Source: Pseudomonas thermotolerans DSM 14292 (lineage in GTDB: Bacteria > Pseudomonadota > Gammaproteobacteria > Pseudomonadales > Pseudomonadaceae). From it: a stretch of DNA of 64,000 bases. This document shows, piece by piece, positions 7,428 to 10,043 of the stretch; the stretch's first letter is position 1; each line of letters opens with the position of its first letter. The position numbers and the translations under genes are program-made. Where the stretch lies: the NCBI RefSeq assembly GCF_000364625.1, contig NZ_KB822609.1, positions 1-64,000 of the forward strand. Direction: 5' to 3'. The notes beneath the pieces are model-generated. The model was not told where the DNA came from and did not search any database. It worked only from the letters and a program-made list of their open reading frames with translations.

Positions 7428-8240
7428 TCAGCGCCGGGTGATCACTACTTCCAGGTATTCGCTGGGCACCACCAGGGAATCCGGCCCGGCGTGGTTGAGG
7501 CTTTCCAGCAGTTCGGCCATGTCCTGCTCCAGCGCCGGCGCCCATTCCGCGGGCAGCGCGGCGAACGCCTTGTGCACCGGCCCGTACCAGGTGCGGAACA
7601 CCTCGATGAAGTGCGCCGCCGAGCGGTAGCGGAAGTTGAAGTGCCGGCGGGTCACCTCGATGCGCGCGGCGCTGTCGGCGAACAGCTCGTGGAGGTGCGA
7701 CTCCACCCCCCAGAGCACCGGCGGCTGTACCCCGGGCGGTGGCGGCAGGTGACGGCCGAGGGTCTTGAACAGCTGGCCGATGAAGCCCTCCGGCGTCCAG
7801 TTGGCCAGGCCGATGCGTCCGCCCGGCCGGCAGACCCGCGCCAGCTCGGCGGCAGCCTGGTCCTGGTTGGGGGTGAACATCACCCCGAAGGTGGACAGCA
7901 CCGCATCGAAGCTGGCTTCGGCGAAGGGCAGGGCCTCGGCGTCCGCGGTGCGGAAGCTGACCGGCAGGCGCTCCGCCCGGGCGCGCTCCTCGCCGCGCTC
8001 GAGCAGGGTGCTCACGTAGTCGGTGGAGGTCACCCGGCAGCCGCGACGGGCGGCGGCCAGGGTGGCGTTGCCGTTGCCGGCGGCCACGTCGAGGACTGTC
8101 TCATCGCAGCGCAGATCGCACGCCTCGGCCAGCTGTTCTCCGACGATCTGCAGGGTGGTGCCGATCACGGCGTAGTCCCCGCTCGCCCAGGTGGCCATCT
8201 GGCGGCTTTTCAGTGCGGTGAAGTCGACGGCAGTGTTCAT
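7428..8240 (-). CDS. Class I SAM-dependent methyltransferase
   Basis: This 270-aa protein belongs to the UbiE/COQ5-like class I methyltransferases. The SAM-binding motif I is VLDVAAGNGNATLAAA at about residues 50-65. Further motifs are SFRTADAEALPF, DAVLSTFGVMFTPNQ and the PGGRIGLANW post-motif. The C-terminal half, with FNFRYRSAAHFIEVFRTWYGP, would bind an unknown acceptor. It is divergent from the OsmC-AraC operon, with 286 bases between the starts. The start MNTAVDF at 8240 is preferred to upstream codons because homology-like sequence begins there. The substrate cannot be told. Confidence 0.85.
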   Translation of the reverse strand: MNTAVDFTALKSRQMATWASGDYAVIGTTLQIVGEQLAEACDLRCDETVLDVAAGNGNATLAAARRGCRVTSTDYVSTLLERGEERARAERLPVSFRTADAEALPFAEASFDAVLSTFGVMFTPNQDQAAAELARVCRPGGRIGLANWTPEGFIGQLFKTLGRHLPPPPGVQPPVLWGVESHLHELFADSAARIEVTRRHFNFRYRSAAHFIEVFRTWYGPVHKAFAALPAEWAPALEQDMAELLESLNHAGPDSLVVPSEYLEVVITRR

Positions 8241-8408
8241 GTTCAGGCTCCGTGTACCGGCCGTGGCCGGCAGGTTGAGGGCGCCTCGCTGCACGGAATG
8301 CCGGCCTGGAAGCCCCGCACTCGGCGCCGTGGTTTCTTGTTGCCCGCCCCGGCCGGAGTGGCCGGGCACAGGTGGGCGGATTGTCGGAGCCGGCCGCTGG
8401 CGGCGTCC

Positions 8409-8441
8409 TGCCTGAGCGTCGGCCATTCTTGCCCGAGCGTC
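8409..8441 (+). promoter_or_regulatory. 21-bp-spaced direct repeats, candidate AraC-type site
   Basis: TGCCTGAGCGTC (8409-8420) and TGCCCGAGCGTC (8430-8441) match at 11 of 12 bases and repeat with a 21-base period, two helical turns. AraC/XylS regulators typically bind direct repeats spaced by about 21 bp. The site is 85 bases ahead of an operon that encodes an AraC-type regulator, so self-control is likely. No clear -35/-10 pair is seen downstream. Confidence 0.55.
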
Positions 8442-8526
8442 CGGATCTGCCCATTCATCGCCTGGCCGGCCGGGCCGCCCGCGCGTGACCACACTCAGGA
8501 GACAGGTTCCGGCGTGGAGAACGGCC

Positions 8527-9060
8527 ATGACGAACCAGGACATCGCCACCGCGCTGCGGCGGCTGGAGACGGTGCTGGCGCGCCGTCCCGAGATGGGGAT
8601 GCACCCGGACGTGCCGGCGCTGGCCCGCTGGCAGGGCGGCACCCGGGTGGAGGTTTGCCATGAAAGCGGAGCCCGGCTGCATACCGACCTGCCGGTGGAG
8701 TTGGGGGGCAGCGGCGAGCAGGTCACCCCCGGCTGGCTGCTGCGCGCGGGGCTGGCCGCCTGTGCGGTGACCCGCCTGGCGATGAGCGCCGCCGGCGCCG
8801 GCATCGAGCTGGCCGCCCTGGAGGTGGAGGTCGCCAGCCAGTCCGACCTGCGCGGCCTGCTGGGCCTGGCTGATGGCGCCGGCAAGCCGCCGTCCGCCGG
8901 GCCGCAGCAGCTGACCCTGGTGCTGCGCCTGTCGGCGCCCGGGGTGCCGGCCGAACGTCTACGCGCCCTTGCCGAAGACAGCCAGCGCCTGTCGCCGGTG
9001 AGCTGCGCCCTGCAGGAGCCGGTGCCCATCGACCTGCGCATCGAGGTGCTCGGCGGCTGA
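8527..9060 (+). CDS. OsmC-like family protein
   Basis: This 177-aa protein fits the OsmC/Ohr-like fold: a strand-rich N-terminal half with VEVCHESGARLHTDLPVELGG and a long central helix GWLLRAGLAACAVTRLAMSAAGAGI. Family members often reduce organic peroxides with paired cysteines. Here one cysteine stands in the AACAVT helix and another near the end (SCALQEP), so peroxidase chemistry is possible but unproved. I chose ATG 8527 with GGAGAA ahead of it over an upstream GTG at 8485. Its stop overlaps the start of the AraC gene by one base. Confidence 0.75.
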   Translation: MTNQDIATALRRLETVLARRPEMGMHPDVPALARWQGGTRVEVCHESGARLHTDLPVELGGSGEQVTPGWLLRAGLAACAVTRLAMSAAGAGIELAALEVEVASQSDLRGLLGLADGAGKPPSAGPQQLTLVLRLSAPGVPAERLRALAEDSQRLSPVSCALQEPVPIDLRIEVLGG

Positions 9061-10043
9061 TGGACGCGCTGTCGGAAGCCCTGCGGGTGGTGCGCCTGGT
9101 CGGCGCCATCTTCATCAGTGCGCGCTTCAGTGCGCCCTGGTGCTACCAGTCGCCGCGTGCCGATTCGGTGGCGCCGCTGCTGGAGTCGGGCGCCGAGCGG
9201 GTGGTGATCTTTCATCTGATCACTGACGGCGAGTGCTACGTGGAACTGGGCAGCGAGGCGCCGGTGCATCTGGTGGCCGGCGACGCCATCGTATTTCCCC
9301 AGGGCGATGCCCACCGCATGACCTCAGAGCCGGGGCTGGCGCCGGCCAAGGGCGCGCGCCTGGACGCGGTGCTGGCACGCCGGCCGCGGTTGCTCGCCTA
9401 TGGCGGCGGCGGGGCGGTGACCCGCCTGATCTGCGGCTACCTGGCCTGCGATGCGCGCTTCGCCGGGCTGCTGCTGGCCGGGCTGCCGCCGCTGGTGCGG
9501 GTCAACGTACGCGGCTCCAGCGCTGGCGACTGGCTGGAGTCCTCGGTGCGCTACGCGCTGGCCGAGGCGCGCTCGCCGCGGCCGGGCGGCGCCGGGGTGC
9601 TGGCCAAGCTGGCCGAGGTGCTGTTCATCGAGGTGCTGCGCCTGTACATGCACGAGCAGGGCGAGGGGCGCACCGGCTGGCTGGCCGGCCTCAACGACCG
9701 CATCGTCGGCGCCGCGCTCAACGCCCTGCACCGCAAGCCGGCGCATGCCTGGACCCTCGACGAGCTGGCGCGTACCGCCGGCACCTCGCGTTCGGTGCTG
9801 GTCGAGCGCTTCCAGCTGCTGGTCGGCAACGCGCCCATGCAGTACCTGACCCAGTGGCGCATGCTGCTGGCCGCCAACCTGCTGCGCCACAGCACCACGC
9901 CCTTGCTGCGCATCGCCGAGGAGGTCGGCTACCAGACCGACAGCGCCTTCAGCCGCGCCTTCCGCCGTGAGTACGGCCTGCCCCCGGCGGCCTGGCGGCG
10001 CGCCCAGAGCGCGGCAAGCGGGGCCTCGGCGTTCGGCCGTTAG
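9060..10043 (+). CDS. AraC-family regulator with N-terminal cupin domain
   Basis: This 327-aa regulator has an N-terminal cupin-like effector domain (about residues 15-190, with ECYVELGSEAPVHLVAGDAIVFPQGDAHRM) and a C-terminal pair of AraC helix-turn-helix motifs (about 220-320, with WTLDELARTAGTSRSVLVERF and IAEEVGYQTDSAFSRAFRREYG). Pseudomonas genomes hold many relatives that control a neighbouring reductase or detoxification gene. Coupling to the OsmC gene (TGATG overlap) suggests that it controls that gene and perhaps the divergent methyltransferase by way of the repeats at 8409-8441. The ligand is unknown. Confidence 0.88.
   Translation: MDALSEALRVVRLVGAIFISARFSAPWCYQSPRADSVAPLLESGAERVVIFHLITDGECYVELGSEAPVHLVAGDAIVFPQGDAHRMTSEPGLAPAKGARLDAVLARRPRLLAYGGGGAVTRLICGYLACDARFAGLLLAGLPPLVRVNVRGSSAGDWLESSVRYALAEARSPRPGGAGVLAKLAEVLFIEVLRLYMHEQGEGRTGWLAGLNDRIVGAALNALHRKPAHAWTLDELARTAGTSRSVLVERFQLLVGNAPMQYLTQWRMLLAANLLRHSTTPLLRIAEEVGYQTDSAFSRAFRREYGLPPAAWRRAQSAASGASAFGR

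Follow-up and report, generated by a model that had tools for sequence, protein, structure and literature searches.

The window (the whole stretch analysed, 64,000 nt) contains a 286-nt spacer with a divergently oriented methyltransferase gene on one side and an OsmC-AraC gene pair on the other, and within this spacer lies a pair of direct repeats. The coordinates and domain matches are collected in Table 1; the gene calls of the earlier note, which had placed an AraC protein in the operon downstream of the repeats, hold. The OsmC stop codon and the AraC start codon overlap in the sequence TGATG. The OsmC gene was classed as OsmC-like by Pfam and rejected as an Ohr peroxiredoxin (TIGR03561, 23.8 bits against a cut-off of 88.85). 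Proteins matching it at E <= 1e-20 were found in one of 398 genomes of the genus, the source genome itself, and in 3 of 293 genomes of the order, again with the source genome included. By eye, two cysteines are present in the OsmC-like protein of the window, presumably at the positions where OsmC and Ohr proteins carry theirs, and the protein at locus L038 (1501-2031) is without the second. The AraC regulator has orthologues that are 79-85% identical. Its top NCBIfam match is RclR (NF040475), but the score of 105.9 bits falls far short of the 400 bits set as curated cut-off, and an assignment as RclR was rejected. The AraC orthologue at L020 (1501-2448) contains an in-frame stop codon. Among the literature matches listed, nothing dealt with this Cupin_6 AraC regulator or its half-site word, and the excerpt of PMC7950407 held nothing usable on RclR binding sites. 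An RNA element at 8200-8560 was considered and dropped, there being no Rfam match in that interval.

Table 1. Genes, half-sites and predicted promoter hexamers around the repeat pair (positions in the window).
Feature	Position	Strand	Remarks
Class I SAM-dependent methyltransferase, 270 aa	7428-8240	-	PF08241, PF13649; divergent
-10-like hexamer GACAAT, methyltransferase side (predicted)	8380-8385	-	Offset -29 from the pair
Half-site 1, CTGCCTGAGCGTCGG	8408-8422	+	Adjoins the predicted methyltransferase promoter; 20.5 bits, best in the window; conserved in orthologous loci
Half-site 2, TTGCCCGAGCGTCCG	8429-8443	+	21 bp after half-site 1; 20.4 bits, second in the window; conserved
Third half-site (probable, weaker), CTGCCCATTCATCGC	8447-8461	+	18 bp after half-site 2; 9.8 bits
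-10-like hexamer CACACT, OsmC-AraC side (predicted, chosen after looking)	8490-8495	+	Offset +81
OsmC-like protein, 177 aa	8527-9060	+	PF02566
AraC-family regulator, 327 aa	9060-10043	+	N-terminal Cupin_6 (PF12852), C-terminal HTH_18 (PF12833)

The two repeats, TGCCTGAGCGTC (8409-8420) and TGCCCGAGCGTC (8430-8441), are identical at 11 of 12 positions with a period of 21 bp from start to start, exactly as the earlier note had described them, and their likeness reaches 15 bp (8406-8420 against 8427-8441) at 87%. With fewer than two mismatches, the 12-mer TGCCYGAGCGTC matches just these two places in the 64 kb, and a degenerate pattern of the pair has a single match in the entire 3.75-Mb genome. 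Conservation aside, the bare repeat pair is only moderately unusual: among 5000 simulated first-order spacers of 286 nt, a repeat of at least 11/12 occurred at period 21 in 10 and at periods 20-22 in 36, and the window holds one other repeat of such quality, at 9591 within the AraC gene. A weight matrix was made from 33 distinct half-sites of other loci, with the window left out; it ranked half-sites 1 and 2 first and second in the 64 kb, the next place scoring 15.5 bits. The score of the probable third half-site has to be read against 27 places in the window that reach at least 9 bits. Its degenerate word, TGCCCATTCATC (8448-8459), is the last half-site also in L042, L047, L053 and L056. A wider regulon in the same genome was looked for and rejected. 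Allowing up to three mismatches, the pair pattern has seven further places there, all with three mismatches, and the total of eight equals the eight found with a reversed control.

We examined the conservation of the pair in several sets of genomes. The pair pattern with at most one mismatch was present in 18 of 298 genomes of the family, against one match for the reversed control, and in 12 of these 18 (source genome included) the pair lies between this methyltransferase and this AraC gene. A protein search that made no use of the motif, covering 95 genomes (source genome included), found an AraC orthologue (80-83% identity) in six relatives, all of which have the 21-bp pair. We then scanned named genomes with an alignment of eight AraC sequences and kept the best 80 of 251 related stretches. 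Each locus received the score, out of 20 fixed positions, of the best 21-bp pair in the 1.6 kb upstream. Of these loci, chosen by the AraC protein alone, 74 of 80 reached 17/20 or more with a spacing of exactly 21 bp, a set that spans Pseudomonas, Variovorax and a Rhizobacter metagenome-assembled genome (MAG). With L038, L039 and the window added, 77 of 83 loci did so; the scores were 13 (one locus), 15 (one), 16 (four), 17 (five), 18 (18), 19 (35) and 20 (19). For comparison, the 83 downstream regions scored 12-15, 415 shuffles 11-16, and the best over 18 other spacings 14-18. The six named loci below 17 are L053, L088, L107 and L111 (16 each), L075 (15) and L115 (13); the outline of the element is still visible in them by eye, yet L075 and L115 fall within the control range. 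The site stands out from poorly conserved surroundings, also among the more diverse OsmC-type loci, and the consensus of the OsmC-free loci is about GGCGTCCTGYCCGATCGTCGGCCAACCCTGYCCGATCGTCCGGAG. The earlier note had proposed an AraC-type direct-repeat site tied to the adjacent AraC gene and phylogenetic footprinting as a check, and both the tie and the conservation are borne out. Chance similarity in GC-rich DNA, which the simulated spacers would allow, is ruled out by conservation across loci chosen independently through AraC, and we regard its probability as negligible.

At 11 loci with distant AraC paralogues, no such pair exceeded the best of 100 shuffles each. By eye, a single half-site of the kind seen in L027 (TTGCCCAAACGTCCGG) recurs at the paralogue loci in a looser form. 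The AraC orthologues at L040-L119 are 80-85% identical in Pseudomonas and Variovorax (Comamonadaceae), which may point to past horizontal transfer of the module. Six pattern matches lie away from this AraC gene. Those in L003, L004 and L008 are near-identical, that in L005 falls inside a coding frame (which we take to be dnaX-like), and that in L017 touches a different AraC gene at its 3' end. At the sixth, L018 (1501-1533), a similar pair lies between a regulator of the AraC_N type and a divergent gene that looks dehydrogenase-like by eye; the half-site word may thus be common to other AraC proteins. As the word also occurs outside this orthologue group, one could suppose that the repeats are bound by some factor other than the adjacent AraC. 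We consider this very unlikely, as the L018 regulator again belongs to the AraC/XylS family and the pair accompanies this AraC in the great majority of the loci while the OsmC and SCO4226-like genes vary. Dozens of other bacteria have a near-identical pair, equally spaced, in front of this regulator, which argues that the pair is very probably the operator of the adjacent Cupin_6-type AraC regulator.

The neighbouring genes of the same loci indicate which promoters the site may serve. In 62 of the 80 named loci (best 80 of 251), the methyltransferase gene and a gene for an SCO4226-like protein (PF14026) face AraC, with no OsmC match between them and AraC next after the site. In 14 of the 80 (Variovorax, a Polaromonas MAG and a Rhizobacter MAG), the methyltransferase gene faces OsmC-AraC, and the window is a fifteenth case. 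All four genes are present in one of the 80, from P. jinjuensis, and likewise in L038 and L039 of the window's family. The remaining three (L088, L107 and L115) pair OsmC-AraC with a divergent methyltransferase of another subfamily, confirmed by Pfam. A divergent methyltransferase gene therefore lies opposite the site in 80 of 80 named loci; 77 of these are orthologues of this subfamily by tblastn, at 75-83% identity. The methyltransferase is the constant partner of the site, and the presence of OsmC and the SCO4226-like gene varies from locus to locus. Where the earlier note had added the methyltransferase as a gene possibly under the same control, its presence throughout and the absence of OsmC from 62 loci move it from a possible to the principal target.

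A search of the 62 OsmC-free spacers with OsmC proteins returned one clear relic, in L053, where about 38 residues align to OsmC N-termini (best E 1.5e-5) and the truncated frame reads into a TGATG overlap with AraC. This suggests that OsmC was lost there from an OsmC-AraC operon, and that the OsmC-AraC arrangement is the older state, at least at that locus. A short frame in L104 resembles the L053 relic by eye. Rooting of an AraC tree favoured neither gain nor loss of OsmC, as the outgroup branches were saturated and the window's own branch was long and arose from a polytomy. The SCO4226-like family had no match in the source genome, was present in three of three positive-control relatives and was absent from 14 named control genomes, so that the set here consists of the methyltransferase, OsmC and the regulator. 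A remnant of the SCO4226-like gene at 8241-8408 was also sought and rejected, tblastn giving no meaningful match.

In most loci, the pair keeps a near-fixed spacing to -10-like hexamers. As these hexamers were picked after looking, the distances are a pattern to test and not proof. On the methyltransferase side, 58 of 62 OsmC-free loci have GATAGT at offset -28 relative to the pair. Apart from the window, 17 loci combine OsmC with this methyltransferase; their hexamers are weaker and vary in position, with GACAGT at -29 in five, at -28 in four, and other words in the rest. Taken as -10 elements, the hexamers would place half-site 1 of the window at about -35 to -49, counted from the predicted start, and half-site 2 at about -56 to -70. 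By the predicted -10, the promoter-proximal half-site on this side would fit the -35 position, whereas on the OsmC/AraC side it ends about 5 bp short, which speaks against a shared operator; of the two spacings, that on the methyltransferase side is compatible with class II activation. Searches of the spacer for consensus sigma-70 promoters and terminators gave none, which says little since shuffled sequences average 0.0 promoters and 0.3 terminators.

The spacing on the other side bears on whether OsmC-AraC is served as well. In 55 of 62 OsmC-free loci a CACAAT-type hexamer sits at +63, 42 nt beyond the point where half-site 2 begins. The window keeps this 42-nt distance between CACACT and its third half-site, which starts at +39; a similar third element lies 43 nt from the hexamer in L060, L072 and L077, and in L038 and L039 half-site 2 itself is 43 nt away. 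Taken together, the nearest half-site is 42-43 nt from the OsmC/AraC-side hexamer in 61 of 83 loci. The site might instead serve the methyltransferase promoter only, with OsmC-AraC expressed constitutively from its own promoter and adjoining the site because the spacer is short. The methyltransferase is indeed the constant partner, its -10-like hexamer is compatible with class II, and the 17 OsmC-containing loci described above showed no OsmC-side hexamer at a constant distance from the first pair. We nevertheless hold this to be unlikely: the 42-43 nt distance is kept in most loci, in the window by a different half-site, and several loci with long spacers carry second half-site pairs on the OsmC side. 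The distance makes autoregulation of the OsmC-AraC operon likely. The earlier note had named the site for such self-regulation of an AraC/OsmC operon, an arrangement that the L053 relic favours; the note's emphasis on OsmC does not extend to the 62 of 80 loci where that gene is missing.

The site resembles known tandem operators of the AraC/XylS type. It has two similar 15-bp half-sites that repeat directly at a distance of 21 bp, about two helical turns, and it is linked to a regulator gene of the AraC/XylS family, with the adjoining PF12852-PF12833 protein here and the pair scores across loci given above. The XylS operator at Pm has a 21-bp period and overlaps the -35 region. From the title of one study, the XylS and polymerase sites are reportedly overlapping. 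In the excerpt of PMC5481539, the Pm operator consists of two 15-bp direct repeats with a box A (TGCA), 6 bp and a box B. The site here shares with it the 15-bp direct repeats, the TGC-type box, the 6 bp and a second four-base box, and differs in that this second box is TCSG rather than GGTA. It also differs in lying between two divergent promoters and in the Cupin_6 N-terminal domain of its regulator. Read in the XylS direction, with the TGC box upstream, the repeats would point to OsmC-AraC rather than to the methyltransferase, which counts against activation of the latter. For MtlR at PmtlE of Pseudomonas fluorescens, the excerpted text of PMC4514859 places two 15-bp direct-repeat blocks just upstream of -35, at -72/-58 and -50/-36; these are close to the positions of -56/-70 and -35/-49 predicted here. 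The MtlR regulon, in contrast, concerns mannitol, and that excerpt describes no shared divergent operator. The operator is of an already known kind (AraC/XylS-type tandem), and the gene set so regulated is unstudied.

From these comparisons we propose that two AraC subunits would bind head-to-tail to the two half-sites, of the form TGYC-N6-TCSG and 21 bp apart, and that with an inducer they would activate the methyltransferase promoter in class II manner, as half-site 1 abuts its -35 region. The same operator, in this species with the weaker third half-site, would also control the OsmC-AraC operon and hence the level of AraC itself. We infer AraC binding, the inducer, the start sites and activation over repression from sequence, and give a single AraC operator common to the two divergent promoters a probability of about 0.8. 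Alternatively, AraC could repress, perhaps through a DNA loop or by occupying both promoters, with the inducer giving relief; half-sites lie near both predicted promoters, and in some relatives two pairs about 62 bp apart would make bridging possible. Repression appears quite improbable to us, given a methyltransferase-side geometry that matches known activator sites and predicted hexamers that are poor matches to consensus.

The analysis provides a predicted binding motif and minimal regulon for a Cupin_6 AraC regulator of Pseudomonas, Variovorax, Polaromonas and several metagenome genomes, and it ties methyltransferase, OsmC-like and SCO4226-like proteins together as one regulated set. The SCO4226-like proteins form a nickel-binding family, according to the Pfam name and the excerpt of PMC4186839. 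A role of this set in detoxification is a guess.

The half-sites form varied arrays among the loci, a natural series for how shared operators keep their geometry. A second 21-bp pair lies at +62/+83 in L076, L081 and L115, at +61/+82 in L111, at +51/+72 in L042, L047 and L056, and at -62/-41 in L088; L058 carries three consecutive half-sites spaced by 21 bp. In ten loci the last half-site is 64-65 nt from the hexamer (OsmC-free L053 included; the half-site of L096, below threshold, was assigned by analogy), about one 21-bp step more than 42-43 nt. Other distances from the last half-site are 55 nt (L107), 68 (L058), 74 (L075), 75 (L042), 88 (L057 and L059) and 92 (L041). No hexamer of the CACAAT type was found on the OsmC/AraC side in L070, L108 and L111; in L071 and L079 the hexamer is at +82, with a possible third element seen in the alignment only. 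Tentatively, the operator may evolve by gain and loss of 21-bp half-site modules as the genes that it serves are gained or lost. One pair would then stay fixed to the methyltransferase promoter, further half-sites would vary with the SCO4226-like gene or OsmC, and the spacing between the last half-site and the other promoter would be kept at 42-43 or 64-65 nt. A GGCATAG word was also seen about 9-13 bp past the last half-site in L042, L047, L056, L058 and L096.
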